Under the pieces are notes generated by a model. That model saw only the letters and a program-made list of their open reading frames with translations. It was not told where the DNA came from and searched no databases. Position numbers and translations under genes: made by a program. From Clostridia bacterium (GTDB taxonomy: Bacteria > Bacillota > Clostridia > Oscillospirales > UBA644): a DNA stretch of 64,000 nt. Shown here one piece after another: positions 7,662-59,212 of this stretch (positions are counted from its first letter, which is position 1; each line of letters opens with the position of its first letter). The stretch lies in assembly GCA_017427285.1 (NCBI GenBank), contig JAFRTE010000043.1:1-64000 (forward strand). The letters run 5' to 3'.

Positions 7662-10220
7662 TCAGTATTTCAGCTTCAGAATGCACTTGCCCGTTATTCC
7701 CGAAAGGGTCACGCATTCATTTTCCGGCATATTTTCGCGCTCGGAGTTTGTCGCAACTTCGATACTGATGTCGTTTTCGCCCGAACGGAGCAAATTTGAG
7801 ATTTCGAAACGGTATTCGGGAACTATCTGTATGCCCGCGCTTATACCGTTTACAAAAAGCTCGACTCCCTCGTGGGCGTCCGTTAACGACAAAAGAGCAC
7901 GTGACGGAGCTGTTTTTATATCTACTTTCCGTTCATACTTTGCAAATCCGGAAAAATGGGGCATTTCTGCTGCGAGACTGTCGGGCAGAGAAACCGATTT
8001 TTCATCTTTGAAATCGGGATAATCGATCGAACGGCATATGCTGCGTTTCCAGCCGTCGTTAAGAGATATTTCTTCGCCGTCAAACGGTTCCGGAAGAAAA
8101 TCTTTTTCGGAGGGCGTGTATCCGAAAAGGACGATAACGCTGTGAAGCGGCTCTGCGGTGAAATAAAGACGGGTTTTATCTCCGTTTTTCTCCGACTTAA
8201 TGCGTCTCAGTCCGTTTTCCCATGCGTCGTATATCATGCACTCGCCTTTCGACGGTACGTCGGCATAGCCCTGCCAGATTTCTTTTCCCTCATTGACGAA
8301 CATATAAATACCATATTCGCCGGAGACGTGAAGCACGCGCAAATCGGGATTTTCGGGGTAAATATTTACGGATTTCAAGCCGAGATTTTCAAGCTTTTCC
8401 GGAATATCCCACGGGTTTACGGTATTCGCGTCAAATACCTTTACGCCGTTTTTTTCAAGAGACGGTATCGCATTTTCAACGCACGGCGCGCGGAACTCGC
8501 ATGACGGAAGGATAAACGATCTGTATTTTCTGCCGTTTACACATAGACCGTCTGAGAGATCCGTATCATAACGTTCGGGTCTTGAAAAGACGTCTGCGGG
8601 AATGAAGTCGTAAGCGATCTGTTTTCTTGCAAGGGGCTCCGCAACATCTTCCGGAGGCGCGCATCTTCCCATCCAGTCGCTTTCCGCGGCGTATAAAACA
8701 GCCGCTTCGGGAACGGGATTTCCCGTTTTGAGAAGCGTGACAACGCGGTTCATATAAAGCATAAGTTTGCCGAAATGCTTAAACTGCGGGTCGTTGCCGT
8801 GATTGTAAAAATGCGGGGGACAGTCGTGGTCAGGGTATTTGCAGAGCGAAAACGCATGCGGAACGAAATGATTGATATTTCTTACAAGGCAGTGATCCGC
8901 AACGTATTTTTCGAGCCGAACGCCCTCTTTCCAGCCGTAAGCGCCGAATATTTCGCACATGCTGTTGCCGTGCTTTGCGGGGTCGATCGCCGCCTGCGAA
9001 GCCGCAAGAGCGGCAAGTCCGAAATGATTGAAGCGACCGCAGCGTTTTTCGGTGTCTATTTCGCCCTGTGGGACAATCTGTCCGCTTATTACGTCAATTC
9101 CCGACATATCCTGCCCGCCGAGACCGCGAAAATAATGTCCGAGGCTCGGTCCGGTGCGCGTATGATGATTGTTGTCTTCGATAAGATGACCGATATACTC
9201 TACGCCGTGGTCTCTGCACCATCCGCCAACCTGTTCTGAGAAATTGCGCTCGACGAGCGACGTTACCGCATCCATATACTCAAGACGGACTTTCGCCGCG
9301 GCATTCTGATCGAAATCTCTGTCCCATATAAGCGGCATAAGAGAGATCCATTTTTCCCCAAGGCGTTTTTCCATTTCTTTCGTAACGTCGCTGCCCCACG
9401 CCTGGTCTTCGAGCTGCCAGATGGGTATTCCCGTTTCGTAAAGGTGTCCGTTGCCGAGTTCCGGTTCGTCGGAGAAAAAGCCCGCGATCGTTTTTCCGAA
9501 ATCCGCGGAATAGTGCTGCCAGAATTTTTCGTGGACAGCGTCGATCAAAATGCGGCACGACTCTGCGGACGTCATATTGATAAACTGCCGCCGTGCGCCG
9601 CGGTTTCGGGTCAGATAAAGGATATAAAGAGTCCATTCCCCTTCGGGAACACGGAATGAAAACGAACCGCTGTCTGCTTTATCGCTGAAATCCATTATCC
9701 CGTCGGGCAAAACGCCGTTTTTTCGGACTGCAACTATACCGATAAGTCGGTCGTCGTAATAAACGCGTTTGTTTCTGTGCTCAACGTCGTAGCGTTCCAT
9801 ATCGTTTCTGGGAACGAACGGCGGAAGCTTGCGTAAACCGGTTACGTCTACGGTCATTTCCGAACCCGCCGCGGCGCAGGGGAGCGTTCTGTAAAAAAGG
9901 CACTGACGGCAAAGCTCCTCGGGGGCGTCTGCCATTTTGCCGTCGGCAAAACCCGTCGGGAAATGACTGTCGTCAAGTATCCAGACCTTCATACCGAGAG
10001 CTCTCGCCTCTTCGAGTATAACATCCATATCGTGCCACCACTTCGGACCGGCAAAATCGGGGTGCGGACGGCTCTCCACGCAGACTGCGCCTATATTTGC
10101 AGAGTGTATCGCGCGCATATAGTCGCGCGTTACGTCGTCGTCCTCGCCGTGAAGCCATAAAAACGGAAGGATATAATTATCGTATCCGCCCTGTAAAAGA
10201 TAATCGACAGTATTTTTCAT
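7662..10220 (-). CDS. Large GH106-like glycosidase (alpha-L-rhamnosidase-related)
   Basis: 852 residues, no signal peptide. The N-terminal barrel has blocks recalling GH106-type rhamnosidases: a start like ILPFLWLHGEDDD, then ESRPHPDFAGPKWWHDMD, then LGMKVWILDDSHFPTGFADG. An acidic pair appears in FFSDEPELG and a further block in GHLIEDNNHH. The last ~150 residues form a galactose-binding-like jelly roll (FAKYERKVDI ... VELFVNG). It is the first gene of the operon, 27 nt ahead of the GH2 gene, and carries GAGGAT as ribosome binding site. The pair may remove terminal sugars in sequence from a plant or host glycan. The exact family and substrate are inferred from motif resemblance only. Confidence 0.55.
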   Translation of the reverse strand: MKNTVDYLLQGGYDNYILPFLWLHGEDDDVTRDYMRAIHSANIGAVCVESRPHPDFAGPKWWHDMDVILEEARALGMKVWILDDSHFPTGFADGKMADAPEELCRQCLFYRTLPCAAAGSEMTVDVTGLRKLPPFVPRNDMERYDVEHRNKRVYYDDRLIGIVAVRKNGVLPDGIMDFSDKADSGSFSFRVPEGEWTLYILYLTRNRGARRQFINMTSAESCRILIDAVHEKFWQHYSADFGKTIAGFFSDEPELGNGHLYETGIPIWQLEDQAWGSDVTKEMEKRLGEKWISLMPLIWDRDFDQNAAAKVRLEYMDAVTSLVERNFSEQVGGWCRDHGVEYIGHLIEDNNHHTRTGPSLGHYFRGLGGQDMSGIDVISGQIVPQGEIDTEKRCGRFNHFGLAALAASQAAIDPAKHGNSMCEIFGAYGWKEGVRLEKYVADHCLVRNINHFVPHAFSLCKYPDHDCPPHFYNHGNDPQFKHFGKLMLYMNRVVTLLKTGNPVPEAAVLYAAESDWMGRCAPPEDVAEPLARKQIAYDFIPADVFSRPERYDTDLSDGLCVNGRKYRSFILPSCEFRAPCVENAIPSLEKNGVKVFDANTVNPWDIPEKLENLGLKSVNIYPENPDLRVLHVSGEYGIYMFVNEGKEIWQGYADVPSKGECMIYDAWENGLRRIKSEKNGDKTRLYFTAEPLHSVIVLFGYTPSEKDFLPEPFDGEEISLNDGWKRSICRSIDYPDFKDEKSVSLPDSLAAEMPHFSGFAKYERKVDIKTAPSRALLSLTDAHEGVELFVNGISAGIQIVPEYRFEISNLLRSGENDISIEVATNSERENMPENECVTLSGITGKCILKLKY

Positions 10221-41394: not shown

Positions 41395-41446
41395 TTGACA
41401 AATAAAAGGAATTATGTTAAAATGCCTTTACTTTATTTTAGTAAAG
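41395..41446 (+). promoter_or_regulatory. Promoter of the his operon with an operator-like inverted repeat
   Basis: TTGACA at 41395-41400, 17-nt spacer, TAAAAT at 41418-41423. A perfect inverted repeat CTTTACT-7 nt-AGTAAAG spans 41426-41446, right over the expected transcription start. This position suits a repressor. No T-box and no His-rich leader peptide are visible in the leader. Confidence 0.7.
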
Positions 41447-41476
41447 TGGTAAATCGTTAAAGTATCGGGTGTTTTT

Positions 41477-43120
41477 ATGAAATCTACTGATTACGGAAGA
41501 ACAGACGGCAGAAGAGACTATATTTTCGGAGACGCCGAACTCAGGCGCGGGATATGCGAAAAGCTTATTTCGCTTATGCGCGATTCGGGCTATAAAGAAA
41601 CTGTTACACCTACCGCGGAGTCATACGAAGTTTTTTCGGCGGACCCCACAAGACCGATGGGAAACAGCGTTTATAAATTTACCGACGAGCAAAACAGACT
41701 GATGGCTCTTCGCTGCGACTGCACCGTCCCCATTGCGAGAATAGCCGCAACAAAACTCACCGACACTCCCCTTCCCTACAGGATGTTTTACTGTCAAAAC
41801 GTTTTTTCAGCGCCGTCGTCGGGCAACCGTCTAACGGAAGAAACGCAGTGCGGAGCGGAGCTTATAGGCACAGACCCGCAAAGCAGCATCGAAGCGGATA
41901 CCGAGATACTTGAGCTCGCCGCAAAATGCATGAAAGCGCTTTTCGGGGAAAATTTCAGCATAGAGATCGGCCACGGCAGGCTTTTTACTACGCTTGCCGA
42001 GCTGTATGGAATAGACGGCGAGACTGCCGAAGCGGTCCGCAAACTTATTGAAACAAAAAATTTCGCGTCCATCGAGTCGATGGATATTCCCAAACCGTTT
42101 AAGATGCTGCCGAAAATGTTCGGAAACGCAAGCAGCGAAGACCTTGCGTCGCTTGATAAACTGACGGAAGAAACGGGTTCGGAAAAGATAAAAGAAATAA
42201 TAGATTACATTAAAACGATAATAATCAAGCTGAAAGAAAAGGGCTACGGAAACTGTCTGTCGTTTGATCTGGGGCTTGTCGGACGGCTCGACTACTATAC
42301 CGGCATTATTTTCGGCGGATTTGTTAAGGGACTCGGACACTCCGTTTTGCTCGGAGGAAGATACGACAGTCTGACCGCAAAATTCGGCAGAAAGCTTGCC
42401 GCTACGGGATTCGGAGTTACGGTCGACGATATTTTCGATCTGCTGAAAGACAAGAAAGAAGAAAACGCCGAAAAAGGACCCGCTCGCCCCGTTCGTATTG
42501 CTCTTACAAAGGGCAGACTTGAAACAAAAACAGTTGAAATGCTCGAAAAAAACGGGATAGACTGTTCCTCGCTCAAAAACAAGGGCAGAAAACTCGTTTT
42601 CCCGCTCGATAACGGCAGATTTGAGGTTATGCTCGTAAAAAGCCGCGATGTTATAACGTATGTCGAGCACGGAGTCTGCGATCTTGGGATCGTGGGAAGC
42701 GACACTATAGCGGAATACGGTACCGCCGTTTACGAGCTTGCCAACCTCGGATTCGGAAAATGCAGAATGGCGCTTGCCGGTACGGCAAAATACAAAAACG
42801 ATCCCGATTCTTTCTTCGGCGGATATTCAAAAAAGGTTATTGCAACAAAATTCGTAAACGTTGCAAAAAGATATGCCGCGTCAAAGAAAGCGGATGTTGA
42901 AACCGTATCGATAGAAGGTTCCGTAGAGCTTGCGCCGATTCTCGGACTTGCCGACGGCATCGTGGATATTGTTGAAACGGGCGATACTCTCAGGGAAAAC
43001 GGACTTGAAATAATAGAAGAAATATTCCCCGTTTCCGCAAGAATAGTTGCAAATATCGCAGCAACGAAACTCAGGAAAAAAGAGATAGACGAAATCCTTT
43101 CGGATGTCTTCAAAGTCTGA
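41477..43120 (+). CDS. hisZG: HisZ–HisG fusion: ATP phosphoribosyltransferase with regulatory domain
   Basis: 547 residues. Residues 1 to about 322 are HisZ, a histidyl-tRNA synthetase paralogue (RRDYIFGDAELRRGI, MALRCDCTVPIAR, LVGRLDYYTGIIF). After a charged linker (about 324-336), residues 337-547 form a short-form HisG (RPVRIALTKGRLETKTVEML, CDLGIVGSDTIAE, GIVDIVETGDTLRENGL with the PRPP loop). Short HisG normally needs a separate HisZ in a hetero-octamer; here both are one chain. It catalyses the first step of histidine synthesis, ATP plus PRPP to phosphoribosyl-ATP, usually feedback-inhibited by histidine. First gene of the operon; the ATG follows GGGTG. Confidence 0.92.
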   Translation: MKSTDYGRTDGRRDYIFGDAELRRGICEKLISLMRDSGYKETVTPTAESYEVFSADPTRPMGNSVYKFTDEQNRLMALRCDCTVPIARIAATKLTDTPLPYRMFYCQNVFSAPSSGNRLTEETQCGAELIGTDPQSSIEADTEILELAAKCMKALFGENFSIEIGHGRLFTTLAELYGIDGETAEAVRKLIETKNFASIESMDIPKPFKMLPKMFGNASSEDLASLDKLTEETGSEKIKEIIDYIKTIIIKLKEKGYGNCLSFDLGLVGRLDYYTGIIFGGFVKGLGHSVLLGGRYDSLTAKFGRKLAATGFGVTVDDIFDLLKDKKEENAEKGPARPVRIALTKGRLETKTVEMLEKNGIDCSSLKNKGRKLVFPLDNGRFEVMLVKSRDVITYVEHGVCDLGIVGSDTIAEYGTAVYELANLGFGKCRMALAGTAKYKNDPDSFFGGYSKKVIATKFVNVAKRYAASKKADVETVSIEGSVELAPILGLADGIVDIVETGDTLRENGLEIIEEIFPVSARIVANIAATKLRKKEIDEILSDVFKV

Positions 43121-43141: not shown

Positions 43142-44425
43142 ATGCTTAAAATATACCGCGAAAGAGATTTACCGGGTTTTTTCGGACAGCTTGACGAAAA
43201 AAGAAATTCCGCAGAAACGGACGTTACGAAAACCGTTTTGCAGATAATAGAGGACGTAAGGCAAAACGGCGATACGGCACTGAAAAAATATACCGAAAAA
43301 TTTGACGGAGTATCTCCCGAAAGTTTTGAAATCCCGATAGAAAAAGCAACGGAAGCGCTTGATAAATCCCGCATAAAAGGTCCTCTTCTTGCGGCTGCGA
43401 AAAATATAAAACAGTACCACGAAAAGCAGGTCGCTCACGGTTTTAAAACCGAAAGCGCTGACGGCTGCGTTGTCGGACGGCGCGTTTTGCCTCTTAAACG
43501 CGTCGGTGTTTACGTTCCCGGGGGAAAGGCGGCATATCCTTCATCTGTGCTTATGAATGCGATCCCTGCAAAGGTCGCGGGCGTTGAAGAAATAATAATG
43601 GTCACTCCTCCTCCGAAAAACGAGGACGAAAATACGGATATCCTTGCCGCCGCGTCGGTTGCGGGCGTTGACAGAATATTTTACTGCGGAGGCGCGCAGG
43701 CGCTCGCCGCTCTTGCATACGGGACCCAAACCGTTCCAAAAACAGATAAAATAGTCGGCCCGGGGAATATATACGTTGCAACGGCAAAAAAGCTGCTTTT
43801 CGGTACGGTCGACATCGATATGATAGCAGGTCCTTCCGAAATATGCGTTATCGCCGACGAGGGCGCTGAAGACGGATACGTTGCCGCAGATCTGCTTTCT
43901 CAGGCGGAGCACGACGAGCTTGCGTCGTCCGTTTTGATCTGTTTTTCTGAAGAAAAAGCAAGAAGAGTTGAAAAGCAGATCGAAATACAGCTGCAGTCCC
44001 TTTCACGCAGAGAAATCATTATAAGATCGCTGAAAAACAACGGCGCCGCAATTATTTGCGACGGCATCGAAAACGCGCTTGAAATCGCAAACAAAATCGC
44101 GCCCGAGCATCTTGAGCTTTGCGTTAATGAACCGTTCAAATATCTCGATTCGGTAAAAAATGCCGGTTCGGTCTTTCTTGGCTACTATTCGCCCGAGCCG
44201 CTCGGAGATTATTACGCAGGACCGAATCACGTGCTTCCCACATCCGGCACGGCGAGATTTTTCTCTCCTCTTTCCGTCGAAAGCTTTACGAAAACAAGTT
44301 CTTTCATATATTATACTGCCTCCGCTCTGTCAAAGGCGGCGTCTGATATAACGGCGATAGCGCGTGCGGAAAGACTGACCGCGCATGCGAATGCAATAGA
44401 AATAAGGAACGGTAAACAAAAATGA
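43142..44425 (+). CDS. hisD: Histidinol dehydrogenase
   Basis: 427 residues. RVGVYVPGGKAAYPSSVLM, GGAQALAALAYGT, VGPGNIYVATAKKLLFG and IAGPSEICVIAD are the NAD- and zinc-site blocks; SQAEHDELAS holds zinc ligands. It carries out the last two oxidations, histidinol to histidine. It overlaps hisC by 4 nt. Confidence 0.97.
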   Translation: MLKIYRERDLPGFFGQLDEKRNSAETDVTKTVLQIIEDVRQNGDTALKKYTEKFDGVSPESFEIPIEKATEALDKSRIKGPLLAAAKNIKQYHEKQVAHGFKTESADGCVVGRRVLPLKRVGVYVPGGKAAYPSSVLMNAIPAKVAGVEEIIMVTPPPKNEDENTDILAAASVAGVDRIFYCGGAQALAALAYGTQTVPKTDKIVGPGNIYVATAKKLLFGTVDIDMIAGPSEICVIADEGAEDGYVAADLLSQAEHDELASSVLICFSEEKARRVEKQIEIQLQSLSRREIIIRSLKNNGAAIICDGIENALEIANKIAPEHLELCVNEPFKYLDSVKNAGSVFLGYYSPEPLGDYYAGPNHVLPTSGTARFFSPLSVESFTKTSSFIYYTASALSKAASDITAIARAERLTAHANAIEIRNGKQK

Positions 44426-45486
44426 CTTTCGGAAACAAACTCAAAGATACGGAAGAGTACATTCCGCAAACGTATACACCCGCAATGATCCGTCTTGACT
44501 CAAACGAGAGTTATGCGGATATGCCGGACGAGATGAAAAACAAAGTCCTAGCCGAAATCAGCGCGCAGGCGTTCAACAGATACCCCGATCCTGCCGCCAA
44601 CGCGCTTTGCAAGGCGTTTGCGGATTATTGCGGACTTTATGCGGCAAACGTAGTTGCGGGAAACGGAAGCGACGAGCTGATTTCAATAATGTGTTCCGCG
44701 CTGCTGCCCTCGCATTCAAGAGTACTTGTTCTGTCTCCCGATTTTTCCGTATACAGAATTTATGCCAATCTTTATGAAAACACCGTAATCACGGTAGACA
44801 AAGACGAAGATCTTAATTTCGACATTGAAAATGTTATTTCAGTTGCGAAATCCCGAGCGGTAGATCTGATAATTTTTTCAAATCCGTGCAATCCAACGGG
44901 ACAGGGAATAACGGCTGCCGATGCGGAAAAGCTTATCTCGTCCGTAAACTGCGCCGTTTGCGTTGACGAGGCGTATATGGAATTCTGGACCGCAAACGAA
45001 ACGGTCCTGCCATTAATAAACAGATACGATAATCTTATCGTGCTCAAAACGCTCTCGAAGGCGTTCGGCATGGCAGGTTTCCGCCTCGGGTTTGCCGTAG
45101 CGGGGATGGATACCGTATCTCTTTTCAGAAAAGCGAAAATGCCGTATAACGTAAACGTGCTCTCGCAGGCAGCGGGACTTGCGGCGATGAAAAACAGAGA
45201 ATATCTCAAAAACATGACTTCTCAGATAATTGCGAGAAAAAATATGCTTTATGAGTCCGTAAAACCGCTTGAAAACGCGGATTTTAAAGTATTTGATACA
45301 AAAACCAATTTTATTACCGTAAAAACGCCGAATGCGTCCGCAATTCACTCTTATCTTCTGAAAAACAATATTTCCGTTCGATACATTGCTCCGGATTTTC
45401 TGCGTATCACCGCGGGAACGAGGGGCGAAAACGACATGCTTAAAACCAAACTGGAGGCAGCACTGAATGAGACAGGAATTCATTAA
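44422..45486 (+). CDS. hisC: Histidinol-phosphate aminotransferase
   Basis: 354 residues, fold type I PLP enzyme. IRLDSNESYADMP is near the N-terminus, then NGSDELI, NPCNPTGQ, and the PLP Lys in KTLSKAFGMAGFRLGF. It converts imidazole-acetol phosphate to histidinol phosphate. The end overlaps hisB by 20 nt. Confidence 0.95.
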   Translation: MTFGNKLKDTEEYIPQTYTPAMIRLDSNESYADMPDEMKNKVLAEISAQAFNRYPDPAANALCKAFADYCGLYAANVVAGNGSDELISIMCSALLPSHSRVLVLSPDFSVYRIYANLYENTVITVDKDEDLNFDIENVISVAKSRAVDLIIFSNPCNPTGQGITAADAEKLISSVNCAVCVDEAYMEFWTANETVLPLINRYDNLIVLKTLSKAFGMAGFRLGFAVAGMDTVSLFRKAKMPYNVNVLSQAAGLAAMKNREYLKNMTSQIIARKNMLYESVKPLENADFKVFDTKTNFITVKTPNASAIHSYLLKNNISVRYIAPDFLRITAGTRGENDMLKTKLEAALNETGIH

Positions 45487-46048
45487 CAGACAAACGGCCG
45501 AAACACGTATTTCCGTTAATCTGTCCGTAGACGGCACGGGCTCTTTCGACGGATCGTCGGGTATCGGATTTTTTGACCACATGCTCAATTCGTTTGCGGT
45601 CCACGGAGGATTCGACATTGTGCTGAGTGCAAAAGGCGATCTTAACGTTGACTGTCACCATACCGTTGAAGATATAGGTATAGTCCTCGGAAAAGCGTTT
45701 TACGGAGCGTTGGGAGACAAGCGCGGCATAGCCCGCTTCGGCAGCTGCGCGATACCTATGGACGAAGCTCTGGCGAGAGCGGTTGTCGATATCTCGGGCA
45801 GACCGTACCTCGTTTTTGACGCAGAGTTTAAAGACAGCAAGGTCGGAGAGTTTGACACGTGCCTTACCGAAGAGTTTTTCAGAGCGTTTGCGTTCAACGC
45901 AGGCATAACTCTTCATCTCGCGCTTTTATACGGCAGCAATTCTCACCACTGCATAGAAGCGCTGTTTAAATCGTCTGCCCGCGCCCTGAAAGCCGCCGTT
46001 AAAATCGACGGGGAAAGTATTCCGAGCACGAAGGATTTTATTGAATGA
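45467..46048 (+). CDS. hisB: Imidazoleglycerol-phosphate dehydratase
   Basis: 193 residues, the monofunctional form. GFFDHMLNSFAVHGGFD, DCHHTVEDIGIVLG, and EEFFRAFAFNAGITLH with SNSHHCIEALFK supply the Mn ligands. There is no fused histidinol-phosphatase domain, and no separate phosphatase is seen in the operon. Overlaps hisH by 4 nt. Confidence 0.97.
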   Translation: MRQEFINRQTAETRISVNLSVDGTGSFDGSSGIGFFDHMLNSFAVHGGFDIVLSAKGDLNVDCHHTVEDIGIVLGKAFYGALGDKRGIARFGSCAIPMDEALARAVVDISGRPYLVFDAEFKDSKVGEFDTCLTEEFFRAFAFNAGITLHLALLYGSNSHHCIEALFKSSARALKAAVKIDGESIPSTKDFIE

Positions 46049-46680
46049 AGCTTGCGATAGTTGACTACGGGGCTGGAAATCTGCGCTCGGTCGTTAAAGC
46101 GTTTGATTTTATCGGACAGGATTGCGTAATAACGTCTTCAAAAGACGTAATAAACTCGTGCGCAGGTGTCGTCCTTCCGGGCGTAGGAGCATTCAGGGAA
46201 GCGGCAAACAAGCTGAAAGCCGCCGGGCTCTGGGATCATTTAAAGGCGGAGGCCAAAAAAGGAAAGGCGCTTTTCGGGATATGCCTTGGAATGCAGCTTT
46301 TGTTTGACGGAAGCACCGAGTTCGGATATTCGGAAGGGCTCGGGTTGATAGAGGGCTCCGTTGACGGAATAGATACCGGCGGAAAGCCGCTCAAAATACC
46401 TCATATCGGCTGGAACACCCTGCTTTTCAATAAAAAAACCGCCCTTTTTGAAGGTATGGATTACGGAACTTACGTTTACTTCGTCCATTCTTTTTCCGCA
46501 AAAACGTCCGATGAAAACGTAACCGCCTTTACCGATTACGGCGTGAAGACGGTAGCGTCGGCAGAGAAAAAAAATGTGCTCGGCACGCAGTTCCATCCCG
46601 AAAAAAGCGGCGAAGAAGGACTTAAAATTCTCAGAAATTTCTGTAATATGGTGAAACATGATAATTTTACCTGCAATTGA
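46045..46680 (+). CDS. hisH: Imidazole glycerol phosphate synthase, glutaminase subunit
   Basis: 211 residues, class I amidotransferase. The nucleophile Cys is in GICLGMQLLF, and the catalytic His and Glu are in GTQFHPEKSG. It supplies ammonia to HisF. The end overlaps hisA by 23 nt. Confidence 0.96.
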   Translation: MKLAIVDYGAGNLRSVVKAFDFIGQDCVITSSKDVINSCAGVVLPGVGAFREAANKLKAAGLWDHLKAEAKKGKALFGICLGMQLLFDGSTEFGYSEGLGLIEGSVDGIDTGGKPLKIPHIGWNTLLFNKKTALFEGMDYGTYVYFVHSFSAKTSDENVTAFTDYGVKTVASAEKKNVLGTQFHPEKSGEEGLKILRNFCNMVKHDNFTCN

Positions 46681-47374
46681 CATAAAAGACGGTCAGTGCG
46701 TCCGTTTGCTTCGCGGAGAGTTCGGCACCGTGCATAAAGTAGCGGAAAGCCCGGAAATATCCGCCCGAAACTTTATAGAAAAAGGCGCGGGATTTCTTCA
46801 TGTAGTCGACCTTGACGGAGCGCTGATGAAAAAGCCCGTGAATATCGAAACGGTAAAAAGAATAATAAATCTCGGCGTCCCCGTTGAGATCGGGGGCGGG
46901 ATCCGCACGGAAAAAGATTTTGAAACATACGCCGAGCTTGGAGCGAAAAGAATAGTCCTCGGATCCGTTGCATTAACGGATAAAGCGCTCGTCAAACGCT
47001 GCGCCGATAATTATCCGTCCCTTACGGCAGTAGGAATAGACGCGAAAAACGGTTTTGTTTCAACGGAGGGCTGGCTTTGCAACGGCAACGTTGAATATAC
47101 CGAGCTTGCAAAAGAAGTTGAAGCAATAGGCGTAAGATACGTTATTTTTACGGATATCGCCAGAGACGGCACTCTTGAGGGCCCCAATTTAGAGCAGCTG
47201 TCCCGTCTCAAAAACGCAGTATCCGTAAATATCATCGCGTCGGGCGGCATCCGCGACATAAACGATATAAAAAACTGCAAATCACTCGGTATTTACGGCG
47301 CCGTTTGCGGAAAATCACTTTATTCGGGTACCCTTGACCTGCGGGAGGCGATCGAATGCTCGCAAAAAGAATAA
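46658..47374 (+). CDS. hisA: ProFAR isomerase
   Basis: 238 residues, TIM barrel. The blocks [16 protein letters not shown] with catalytic Asp, [31 protein letters not shown] and [11 protein letters not shown] are conserved. It isomerises ProFAR to PRFAR. Overlaps hisF by 19 nt. Confidence 0.97.
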
Positions 47375-48159
47375 TTCCGTGTCTCGACATAAACAACGGA
47401 CGTGTTGTAAAGGGAACTAAATTTATACACCTCCGTGACGTCGGCGATCCTGCGTCCATAGCCAAGGAATACAACGCTCAGGGAGCGGATGAAATAGTTT
47501 TTCTTGATATCACCGCTTCAAGCGAAGGAAGAGGAACGCTTCTTGACGTTATAGAGCGCACCGCAAGCGAAGTTTTTCTGCCCGTTACCGTCGGCGGAGG
47601 GATAAGAACGACTGACGACATAAAGGAGATCCTCCGCGTAGGTGCGGATAAAATATCCGTAAATTCCGCGGCGGTCAAGGATGAAACGCTTGTTTCAAGA
47701 GCCGCCGACATGTTCGGGTCGCAATGCGTCGTAGTAGCGATAGACGTAAAGCGCGTCCCTTCAAAAAATGAGTATAACGGCGTATTTCCGTCCGATTTCG
47801 GAACGGACATAGACGATTTTCACGTTGTTATCCACGGCGGAAGGACAGACACGGGAATAAACGCCGTTGAGTGGGCAAAGAGAGTTGAAAAGCTCGGGGC
47901 GGGAGAAATACTTCTTACCTCAATGGATACCGACGGAGTAAAAAAGGGATTTGATATCGAAATCACGAAAATCATCTCCGACGCGGTATCGATACCGGTA
48001 ATCGCCTCGGGAGGATGCGGAAGTCTTGAAGATTTCCGCGATGTTTTCAGAGAAACGGACGCTTCCGCCGCACTTGCCGCGTCGCTTTTCCATTTCGGGG
48101 AGCTTTCGGTGCCTCAGGTTAAAAACTATCTGAAAGAACAGGAGATACCTGTAAGATGA
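47356..48159 (+). CDS. hisF: Imidazole glycerol phosphate synthase, cyclase subunit
   Basis: 267 residues. [15 protein letters not shown] includes the catalytic Asp, and [25 protein letters not shown] and [11 protein letters not shown] complete the phosphate and active sites. It makes IGP and AICAR from PRFAR with ammonia from HisH. AICAR links back to purine synthesis. Overlaps hisI by 4 nt. Confidence 0.97.
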
Positions 48160-48482
48160 GCTGGGAAGATAAGATTTTTTGCGGCAGAGAGCTTGTTCCC
48201 GCAATTATAACCGACTGTGAAAACGGCGAAGTGCTCATGCTTGCGTATATGAACAGAGAATCGTTTAAAAAGACTCTGGAAACCGGAAAAACATGGTTTT
48301 TTTCCCGTTCGAGAAACACTCTCTGGAACAAGGGAGAGACGAGCGGACACTGGCAATACGTTAAATCGGTAAAAAGCGACTGCGACAACGATACGCTGCT
48401 CATTTCCGTTAAGCAAATCGGTCCCGCATGCCATACGGGAGCGCGCAGCTGCTTTTTCAATATTATTACGGAGGGAAAATGA
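48156..48482 (+). CDS. hisI: Phosphoribosyl-AMP cyclohydrolase
   Basis: 108 residues. [41 protein letters not shown] and [12 protein letters not shown] contain the zinc and magnesium ligands. A stand-alone form, not fused to HisE. Overlaps hisE by 4 nt. Confidence 0.97.
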
Positions 48483-48826
48483 AAGACACGTTAAACGAAC
48501 TTTACGAAGTTGTTCTGTCAAGAAAAAACGAAAAGGCGGAAGGGTCTTATACCTGCTACCTTTTTGAAAAAGGTCTTGACAAGATATTGAAAAAAGTGGG
48601 AGAAGAATGTTCCGAAACCATAATAGCGGCAAAAAACGCCGAAAACATCGACAATAATGAGAAAAAAGCGGACGTTATAGGCGAAATATGCGACCTTTTT
48701 TATCACGTTACCGTGATGATGGCGCAGCTCGGCGTTACTCCCGACGAGGTGAACGCGGAGCTTGAAAAGCGGTCGCTGAAAACGGGAAATCTCAAAACTT
48801 TTCATACGACAGACAAAAACACGTAA
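48479..48826 (+). CDS. hisE: Phosphoribosyl-ATP pyrophosphatase
   Basis: 115 residues. MazG-like fold with [15 protein letters not shown] and [12 protein letters not shown] as metal-binding helices. It hydrolyses phosphoribosyl-ATP to phosphoribosyl-AMP. The frame extends upstream to 48428, but the ATG at 48479 overlapping the hisI stop codon and preceded by GGAGGG is the clear start. Last gene of the his operon. Confidence 0.95.
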
Positions 48827-54671: not shown

Positions 54672-55913
54672 ATGGAAGAAAAGATATACGGTCTTCTTGG
54701 AAGGAAGCTTGGACACAGCTATTCCGTCAACGTACACCGAAAGCTCGGAAACAACGCCTACAGACTTTACGAACTCGAACCCGACGGACTGGAAGCGTTT
54801 ATCAGAAGCGAAAACGTCGGTGGGCTCAACGTGACGATCCCGTATAAAGTTGAAGCGATGAAATACTGCGACGTTATTTCGCCCGAAGCGGAAGAGATAG
54901 GCGCGGTAAACACGATCGTAAGAAAAAACGGCAAAATATTCGGATACAATTCGGATAAATACGGATTTATACATATGCTCGAAAAATGCGGGATCGACGT
55001 TTCGGGCAAAAAGGTAATCGTTCTTGGCAGCGGCGGAGCAAGCAAAACGGCATGTTACTGCGTTAAAAGCCTCGGGGCGAAAGAGCTTACGGTTATTTCA
55101 AGAAACGGAGAAAACAACTACGGGAATATAGACAAGCATTTCAACGCTGAAATAATAATAAACGCAACGCCCGTCGGGATGTATCCCGAAAACGGCAGTT
55201 CTCCCGTTGAGCTTGACAGATTTACGGCGTGTAAGGGCGTAGTTGACATGATCTACAATCCGCTTCGGACAAAACTGCTGCTTGACGCAGAAAGGCTCGG
55301 GATCAGATCTGCAGGCGGACTTTCGATGCTGACGGCGCAGGCAAAAAAGGCGGCAGAGTATTTTTTTGATACGGAATATCCCGATGGAATAACGGACGAA
55401 ATAACGGACGAAATAATACGGGAATGCGAAAATATCGTAATTATCGGTATGCCGGGAAGCGGAAAAAGCGTTATCGGGACGGCGCTTGCGAAAATAACGG
55501 GAAGAGAGCTGTTTGATACCGACACCGAGATCGAAAAAAACACGGGGAAGAGCATTCCGCGAATTTTTGCCGAAGACGGCGAAAAAAAATTCAGGGAAGC
55601 GGAAAGTGAAACCGTTGAGTATCTCGGAAAGCAGTCCGGCAAAATAATAGTTACGGGCGGCGGTGCGGTGACGGTTGAAAAAAACTTCGGTTTTCTCAGA
55701 CAAAACGGGCGTATTTATGAGATAAAACGCGATATCTCTCTTCTTTCGAGAGACGGGCGCCCACTTTCGCAGAGAGCGGATCTTGCTGAAATGTACGCCA
55801 AAAGACGGCCCATGTATGAAAAATTCAGAGACGTTTGCATAAATAACGACAAAACGCCCGAAGACGCGGCGGAGAAGATAAGGAGAGATTTTTATGAAAA
55901 TTCTCGTTATTAA
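54672..55913 (+). CDS. aroEK: Shikimate dehydrogenase–shikimate kinase fusion
   Basis: 413 residues. Residues 1 to about 235 are AroE: shikimate site LGHSYSVNVHRKL, catalytic Lys59 in NVTIPYKV, Asp95 in YNSDKYGF, NADP loop VLGSGGASKTA, and Gln in GLSMLTAQA. After a short acidic linker with a duplicated ITDE motif (about 240-248), residues 253-413 are AroK, with P-loop GMPGSGKS (259-266), FDTDTEIE and VTGGGAV. The kinase half is complete. One chain does the reduction of dehydroshikimate and phosphorylation of shikimate, two successive steps. Overlaps aroQ by 20 nt. Confidence 0.95.
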   Translation: MEEKIYGLLGRKLGHSYSVNVHRKLGNNAYRLYELEPDGLEAFIRSENVGGLNVTIPYKVEAMKYCDVISPEAEEIGAVNTIVRKNGKIFGYNSDKYGFIHMLEKCGIDVSGKKVIVLGSGGASKTACYCVKSLGAKELTVISRNGENNYGNIDKHFNAEIIINATPVGMYPENGSSPVELDRFTACKGVVDMIYNPLRTKLLLDAERLGIRSAGGLSMLTAQAKKAAEYFFDTEYPDGITDEITDEIIRECENIVIIGMPGSGKSVIGTALAKITGRELFDTDTEIEKNTGKSIPRIFAEDGEKKFREAESETVEYLGKQSGKIIVTGGGAVTVEKNFGFLRQNGRIYEIKRDISLLSRDGRPLSQRADLAEMYAKRRPMYEKFRDVCINNDKTPEDAAEKIRRDFYENSRY

Positions 55914-57880: not shown

Positions 57881-59212
57881 TTACATGTTGGGATCGGCGT
57901 TCTTTTTTCTTCCGGATGAGATAAGCTCGCAGGCGAACTCTTCGGGGTGTTTGAGATAGTAATCCTGATGTTCTTCGCCCGCTTCCCAGAAAGATTTAAA
58001 TGGTTCTGCGCTGACAAAAGCTTTTTTGCCTGCGCTTTTTTCAAGGTTGGCGATCTTCGATAGCGCAACGGTTTTTTCTTCGTCGTTCAAACAGTAAACG
58101 GCGAGCGTATAGGAACGTCCGCGGTCGATAAACTGTCCGCCCGAATCGAAAGGATCGACCTTTGAAAGGAAAATATCGAAAAGCTCTCCGAATGAAACGG
58201 AAGAGGGGTCGTAATCTATTTTTACAGTCTCGCGATGACCGGTTTTCTGACGTTTTACGTCTTCATACGTCGGGTTTGGCTCATCGCCGCCCGAAAAGCC
58301 GGCAGTGACGGAAATAACGCCGCTTTTTTCTTTAAAATCGGGCGTTATACACCAAAAGCATCCGCCCGCGAAATACGCCGATCTAACGGGATCGTTGACC
58401 GTGCTTTCCGAAAGACGCTCAAAAATCGCATGCTCGCCGAGGAGACGGACGGAGGCAAGCTCCTCCTTTCCGCGGACGGTCCAGACAAACTTGGGAGCGC
58501 GGAAAAATCGGGTGGTCAAAAATACGGGAAACGACTTTCTGCACTCTTTATTAAAGGCGATAAAATCGGGACGGGAGACGAAATTGAATGCCATCAGGGT
58601 AAGAAAAACCGTTATCGGATTGTATTTTTTCTGATCTTTGCAGACGTTTGTATAAAGCTGACCGGTGATAACGCCTTTAAGCAGTTTTTTTATCCTGCCG
58701 ATGAGGAACGGATTGAAAGATTCGACGATATAAGGGCCGGAATACTCTTTTAAGACGGGAGCTGCCACGTCGCAAAGGGAGGTGTCAAGGTTTTCACCTT
58801 TAAGCTCAACGAGAATCGGTACTTTTCCGTCTATAAGAGACAAAACCTCGGTAAATTTCGGGATACGCTGATCAGTGCCCGAAAGACGGAGCGTTTCTAT
58901 CTCTTTTGACGTCATTTTGCAGAGATTCTTGTCGACCCCCGTCATTCTTTTTGCGTTACTGTCGTGAAAAACGAATATTTCGCCGTCAGACGAAAGCTGA
59001 ATATCAAGTTCAACTCCCACGCCCTCTTTTAGCGCGCGTTCAAAAGCCGCAAGCGAGTTTTCGGGGATATTATCGGAATAAAGTCCGCGGTGCGCGTATT
59101 CGCAAAGCAGTCCGTCAAAATCGGGAGTTTTGATCTTCGGTCGGACGAGGACGAAAACATAAAGTAAAAACAGCGCTGCGAGGACAGCGAGGATAATTAT
59201 TGCCGCCTGCAC
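57881..59212 (-). CDS. Fusion of glycerophosphodiester phosphodiesterase and methionine sulfoxide reductase A
   Basis: 443 residues. One N-terminal membrane helix (about 3-23) is followed by a GDPD domain (about 30-270) with AHRGLYSDNIPENSLAAF, catalytic His41/Arg42, Glu68 and Asp70 in VELDIQL, and HD at 83-84. From about 277 comes a complete MsrA with GCFWC (nucleophile Cys285), GFSGGDEPNPTYEDV, GHRETVKIDYDP and GEEHQDYYLKHP. The Arg/Lys after the helix suggests that both domains face the cytoplasm. GDPD releases glycerol-3-phosphate from phospholipid head-group diesters; MsrA repairs methionine-S-sulfoxide. Joining them is unusual. GTG start, 2 nt after the MFS stop codon. Confidence 0.88.
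   Translation of the reverse strand: MQAAIIILAVLAALFLLYVFVLVRPKIKTPDFDGLLCEYAHRGLYSDNIPENSLAAFERALKEGVGVELDIQLSSDGEIFVFHDSNAKRMTGVDKNLCKMTSKEIETLRLSGTDQRIPKFTEVLSLIDGKVPILVELKGENLDTSLCDVAAPVLKEYSGPYIVESFNPFLIGRIKKLLKGVITGQLYTNVCKDQKKYNPITVFLTLMAFNFVSRPDFIAFNKECRKSFPVFLTTRFFRAPKFVWTVRGKEELASVRLLGEHAIFERLSESTVNDPVRSAYFAGGCFWCITPDFKEKSGVISVTAGFSGGDEPNPTYEDVKRQKTGHRETVKIDYDPSSVSFGELFDIFLSKVDPFDSGGQFIDRGRSYTLAVYCLNDEEKTVALSKIANLEKSAGKKAFVSAEPFKSFWEAGEEHQDYYLKHPEEFACELISSGRKKNADPNM

Follow-up and report, generated by a model that had tools for sequence, protein, structure and literature searches.

The open reading frame at positions 41477-43120 (+) of the window, which is the whole 64,000-nt stretch of DNA analyzed, encodes HisZ and short-form HisG in one chain of 547 residues, running from ATG to TGA without an internal stop. 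We consider it likely that the product functions as a single-chain short-form ATP phosphoribosyltransferase and belongs to several HisZ-HisG fusions that arose independently in Clostridia, with HisG in the place of the HisZ tail and with four chains most likely forming a HisZ4HisG4 particle; its assembly, activation and inhibition are what we infer. The chain comprises three segments:

41477-42460 (+): HisZ domain, residues 1-328, without C-terminal tail (PF13393; the helix ends at residue 328 in the model and the HMM core at residue 320)
42461-42490 (+): linker coil, residues 329-338 (coil in the model; no in-frame start codon)
42491-43117 (+): short-form HisG domain, residues 339-547 (TIGR00070, PF01634 and alignment to the 1z7m and 8oy0 chains)

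Pfam search revealed PF13393 tRNA-synt_His at residues 13-319 (199 bits) and PF01634 HisG at residues 388-543 (174 bits), with no other synthetase domain or any further Pfam domain in the chain. Against NCBIfam, the C-terminal part matches TIGR00070 hisG over residues 339-525 with 194.7 bits, above the cut-off. The N-terminal part matches TIGR00443 hisZ over residues 13-324 with 248.6 bits, below the cut-off of 271.65 that the equivalog label requires, and scores well under this with the hisS model (157.4 bits). The name HisZ therefore rests on homology, HisZ models outranking hisS, and on the location in a his operon, not on the TIGR00443 label. This part has the HisRS-like core of a HisZ without an anticodon-binding domain, and also lacks the tail. 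It carries DYYTG (residues 272-276) and LGGRYD (residues 292-297), which we take to be histidine-pocket-like motifs with their meaning carried over from HisRS.

The HisG domain has 209 residues, within the range of ~200-230 residues of short-form enzymes, and no C-terminal regulatory domain. Equivalents of the catalytic arginines of the short form are present, as is the PRPP loop, ETGDTLRENGL at residues 500-510. In alignments to solved chains, R347 and R371 correspond to R32 and R56 of Psychrobacter arcticus (numbering from sources such as PMC10795190), R56 being placed by the offset of R32; HisZ has been proposed to position R56 (PMC9734150). The sequence-only reading, which had described HisZ and short-form HisG in a single frame with no stop codon and a 13-residue charged linker, was right on the first point and fair on the second, given that the two HMM domains lie 18 residues apart and that the modeled coil spans ~10. 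The second hisG or hisZ that it proposed to look for was not found: the 2.2-Mb genome (49 contigs, 95.7% complete) has one HisG and, apart from one 428-residue HisRS-like gene, no other HisZ-like ORF.

The whole chain was modeled by AlphaFold2 as a single chain, with a pLDDT of 92.8 and a pTM of 0.89, which for a two-domain protein we take to mean a confident predicted placement of the domains relative to each other. In the model, the HisZ domain closes with a helix (residues 316-328), and the first strand of HisG starts at residue 339. Among solved structures, the nearest chains are short-form HisG and HisZ from Lactococcus lactis, Acinetobacter baumannii, P. arcticus and Bacillus; chain-level fold search showed that the L. 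lactis HisZ chains match the model over 325-327 columns, with a TM-score by target of 0.86-0.87. In the known particle, a HisZ tetramer is flanked by two HisG dimers, giving four HisZ and four HisG subunits (PMC10795190). We find no support for the view that fixing the ratio at 1:1 must alter the assembly: as the known octamer is 4:4 to begin with, the fusion only fixes an existing ratio and does not require a different arrangement. We propose that the N-terminal HisZ domain would serve as regulator and histidine sensor and the covalently attached HisG as catalyst, and that four fused chains most likely form the usual HisZ4HisG4 particle of the split enzymes. By homology, the HisZ domain would activate HisG and relay histidine inhibition, with HisZ and HisG presumably pairing within a chain rather than between chains. 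Because HisG is tethered in every chain, no HisG would be free of its regulator. The single-chain model is compatible with HisZ4HisG4 assembly, with activation by HisZ and with inhibition by histidine.

The fused gene opens an operon with the order hisZG-hisD-hisC-hisB-hisH-hisA-hisF-hisI-hisE, followed by aromatic-amino-acid genes. The control region and the downstream his genes are as follows:

41395-41423 (+): promoter-like TTGACA-N17-TAAAAT ahead of the fused gene, in the matching place in all six fused members of the genus
41429-41448 (+): putative HisR operator TACTTTATTTTAGTAAAGTG, one mismatch away from the HisR consensus given for Firmicutes in PMC9413887
43142-44425 (+): hisD (PF00815, 556 bits)
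44422-45486 (+): hisC, aminotransferase class I/II (PF00155; named by operon position)
45467-46048 (+): hisB, dehydratase (PF00475)
46045-46680 (+): hisH (PF00117; named by operon position)
46658-47374 (+): hisA (PF00977; told from hisF by order and sequence, on inspection)
47356-48159 (+): hisF (PF00977; told from hisA by order and sequence, on inspection)
48156-48482 (+): hisI, a separate gene (PF01502)
48428-48826 (+): hisE, a separate gene (PF01503; on inspection, the real start is probably an ATG near 48479)

The putative operator is the only match to the HisR-type site in the window at two or fewer mismatches, compared to 0.20 expected by chance. Its core, TTTA-N6-TAAA, is kept in all six fused members of the genus, this one included, whereas the one split member, G005, has the promoter-like site and no operator core. 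HisR belongs to the TrpR family, and a TrpR-family gene (PF01371, 98.7 bits) lies on contig 11, not on the contig of the his operon. Rfam search found no T-box or other leader RNA upstream of the fused gene, and in the window as a whole it gave three tRNAs only. Near the operon, a single ORF at 54672-55913 (+) combines the N-terminal domain of shikimate dehydrogenase with a shikimate kinase domain and represents another biosynthetic fusion.

The same two-domain architecture, for which the sequence-only reading had suggested a database search, is widespread. With the whole fusion as query, one alignment spanning both domains was obtained in at least 44 of the 394 genomes in the order, comprising 6 in the genus of the window, 20 in family f12, 3 in f23/g87, 1 in f13 and 14 in a divergent HisG lineage. 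Among these, 41 were confirmed in the DNA as an unbroken ORF; one (G013) is broken by a TAA, and two (G382 and G198) are known by alignment alone. In a sample of the class, at least 20 of 391 genomes have the fusion, 17 of them outside the order and all 17 verified as DNA. None of the matches listed for the phylum beyond the class (289 genomes) is an intact fusion; single matches in G910, G1036, G878, G986 and G912 contain one or two internal stops and were not counted. Frames of 588-674 residues (e.g. in G596, G538 and G608), considered as fusions that keep the tail, were rejected because the DNA shows a real HisZ stop codon before HisG, which follows in the same frame. The rarity implied by the reading was thus wrong, as the fusion occurs in many Clostridia and had already been mentioned in print (PMC9413887). 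Separately, locus L042, on a contig titled Alphaproteobacteria, has a HisG fragment 88% identical to that of the window and probably belongs to mis-binned Clostridia.

Comparison of fused and split HisZ revealed a consistent difference at the C-terminus. All 58 fusions are tailless, the HisZ core being separated from HisG by only 9-23 residues, whereas 98 of 100 split HisZ have a C-terminal tail (at least 55 residues in 96 of them, 39-40 residues in two). In ten independent tree pairs, tail loss accompanied fusion in eight, with two showing no difference and none going against it (p = 0.0078). The two tailless split HisZ, those of G005 and G682, indicate that tail loss does not require fusion. 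Profile comparison of the 96 tails against five HisRS C-termini gave a P value of 3.5e-10, compared to 0.04-0.32 for five control segments; profile homology thereby identifies the HisZ tail as a remnant of the anticodon-binding domain of HisRS. PF21996, the Pfam family of the HisZ C-terminus, was matched by one of five tailed HisZ tested, and weakly (E = 0.078). As HisG is joined at the site of the split-HisZ tail, it occupies the chain position of this remnant. We give roughly even chances to a broader reading, namely that HisG took the place of a vestigial anticodon-binding domain at least seven times in one lineage, a convergent domain replacement in a tRNA-synthetase paralogue, in which tail loss would expose the HisZ end and tethering would yield a permanently regulated, never-free catalyst.

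The number of origins was estimated from concatenated HisZ-HisG trees, which count changes of state between split and fused and not their direction as gain or loss. In a tree of 158 rows (58 fused), for which 23 of 181 rows were dropped as 19 repeat loci from genomes already represented (L001, L022-L029 and L032-L041) and four loci that were partial or disrupted (L003, L015, L148 and L155), ten changes were counted, all ten forced by supported branches. A hand-thinned subset of the main lineage, with near-copies and the divergent lineage left out (88 rows, 22 fused), gave seven changes, again all forced; the HisZ-only and HisG-only trees of this lineage gave seven each, of which six and seven, respectively, were forced. 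These trees suggest that the fusion arose about seven times within the main lineage. Could one ancestral fusion instead have been spread by lateral transfer, or been split again many times? Such a history is in keeping with change counts that leave gain and loss unseparated, and in the divergent HisG lineage, where split genes are nested inside fused ones on the tree, re-splitting may have occurred. However, the fused rows are placed beside split rows from the same families (f1, f12, f13 and f23) instead of clustering together, the data reject a single clade of fusions (p-AU 1e-51), and each re-splitting would require regain of a tail homologous to the HisRS domain. We therefore regard a single ancestry as improbable; since the fused groups adjoin split members of the same families, the pattern is better explained by repeated local fusion than by transfer. 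Five loci from other genera in the family of the window (L011, L013, L014, L016 and L017, from G015, G019, G016, G018 and G002) have divergent, split and tailed HisZ-HisG among the fused ones, which suggests a replacement of hisZG within the family.

A second alternative concerns the product, in that the gene might yield free HisG beside the full fusion, either from an internal start or by cleavage of the chain in the linker. In favor of this, the linker varies and is charged, an in-frame ATG, GTG or TTG occurs between the linker and HisG residue 3 in 31 of 58 fusions, and in six of 58 such a codon is preceded by an SD-like match. Four fused loci of the divergent lineage (L174, L175, L176 and L177) keep a Met just before HisG, which is likely the old hisG start codon. 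In the genus of the window, by contrast, none of the five intact fusions, this one included, has an in-frame ATG, GTG or TTG from the start of the linker to HisG residue 3, which makes free HisG from an internal start unlikely here. Overall, we see only a small chance of two products, and prefer a single fused polypeptide.

The HisZ part might also be decaying, or be merely structural, with HisG acting alone. Its score under the TIGR00443 cut-off and its missing tail would agree with this, as would the fused copy in G013 (L003/L037), where an in-frame TAA interrupts the HisZ part at residue 143, far from the join. However, in the genus comparisons that were computable the HisZ dN/dS is 0.04-0.06 (four of five comparisons), the pocket-like motifs persist, and the model matches the solved L. 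lactis HisZ chains as described above, so that we consider this reading very improbable. In both domains, dN/dS is 0.03-0.06 where computable, three of 15 comparisons being saturated; judged from these ratios, both domains are under strong purifying selection. The HisG downstream of the TAA in G013 is 96% identical to that of the window, and the interrupted copy may be a pseudogene, a polymorphism or an error.

Ten genomes represent the genus, and seven have HisG, six of them fused (the window included) and one split (G005). The five other fused copies are 81-92% identical to the chain of the window over the full length and lie on public contigs from separate metagenome projects, including rumen and water-deer colon. 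Both genes are therefore found in one uninterrupted ORF in more than one assembly. Linker length is identical in all six fusions, whereas the amino-acid identity over codons 320-338 is 42-74% to that of the window. The sequence-only reading had named a missed stop codon or frameshift near 42480-42490 as the point on which it would fall; this is unlikely, given the same in-frame join in five congeners from separate assemblies. Although the genome is a draft of 49 contigs, and G005 is truly split, with TGA A ATG between the genes and 5 nt fewer in the junction, we regard an artefact of assembly or sequencing as in effect refuted by the join and linker length shared among the congeners, by the same join in many distant lineages, and by linker codons that diverge without ever changing the frame.

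The split relatives outline how the fusion may have arisen in the family of the window. Two near relatives, G003 and G014, have split genes with a tailed HisZ. In G005, the sister of the fused genus members (97-98% support), the genes are also split, but HisZ lacks the tail and has AAAGGAGG within its final codons; relative to G005, the junction of the fused members shows a net difference of 5 nt. From these three states, we suggest that the tail was probably lost first, and that a small frame-changing indel then joined the genes. A series of tailed split, tailless split and fused forms within one family shows how such a fusion can arise.

Fusion of hisZ and hisG is already known in print, whereas we have not seen the pattern of tail replacement described. 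PMC9413887 (2022) names the same gene pair as one of the his-gene fusions that occur "in a variety of genomes"; this statement comes with no lineages, structure, tail loss or count of origins, and Fani 2007, the source it cites, makes no mention of hisZ. In the literature searched, with subscription papers mostly outside reach, we found no structural or biochemical study of any HisZ-HisG fusion, no mention of tail loss in such fusions, and no description of the HisZ tail as an anticodon-binding remnant.

Compared to the HisZ4HisG4 enzymes of L. lactis (1z7m), P. arcticus (5m8h) and A. baumannii (8oy0), the window enzyme shares both domains, the catalytic arginines and the PRPP loop; however, they consist of two chains, whereas this one, known here from its sequence and a model, consists of one. 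The hisIE, hisNB and hisHF fusions likewise place neighboring operon genes in one ORF (PMC8305728), but they join two enzyme activities, whereas hisZG links a catalyst with the protein that regulates it allosterically. In long-form HisG (E. coli type), regulation is also carried on the catalytic chain, by a C-terminal regulatory domain and with no HisZ (PMC8305728), in contrast to the N-terminal HisRS-like regulator here. The fusion overturns nothing known on the histidine pathway. A natural one-gene HisZ-HisG complex of several origins nevertheless offers a series for studying an activator that cannot leave and the key HisZ-HisG contact, and the fused gene provides a simple construct for expression in which the 1:1 ratio is guaranteed.

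Two further ORFs elsewhere in the window are of note. One at 57881-59212 (-) combines glycerophosphodiester phosphodiesterase and peptide methionine sulfoxide reductase domains, an odd pairing. The other, an 852-residue ORF at 7662-10220 (-) that adjoins a GH2 enzyme, matches GH106 alpha-L-rhamnosidase with 28.8 bits, just below the cut-off of 29 bits.
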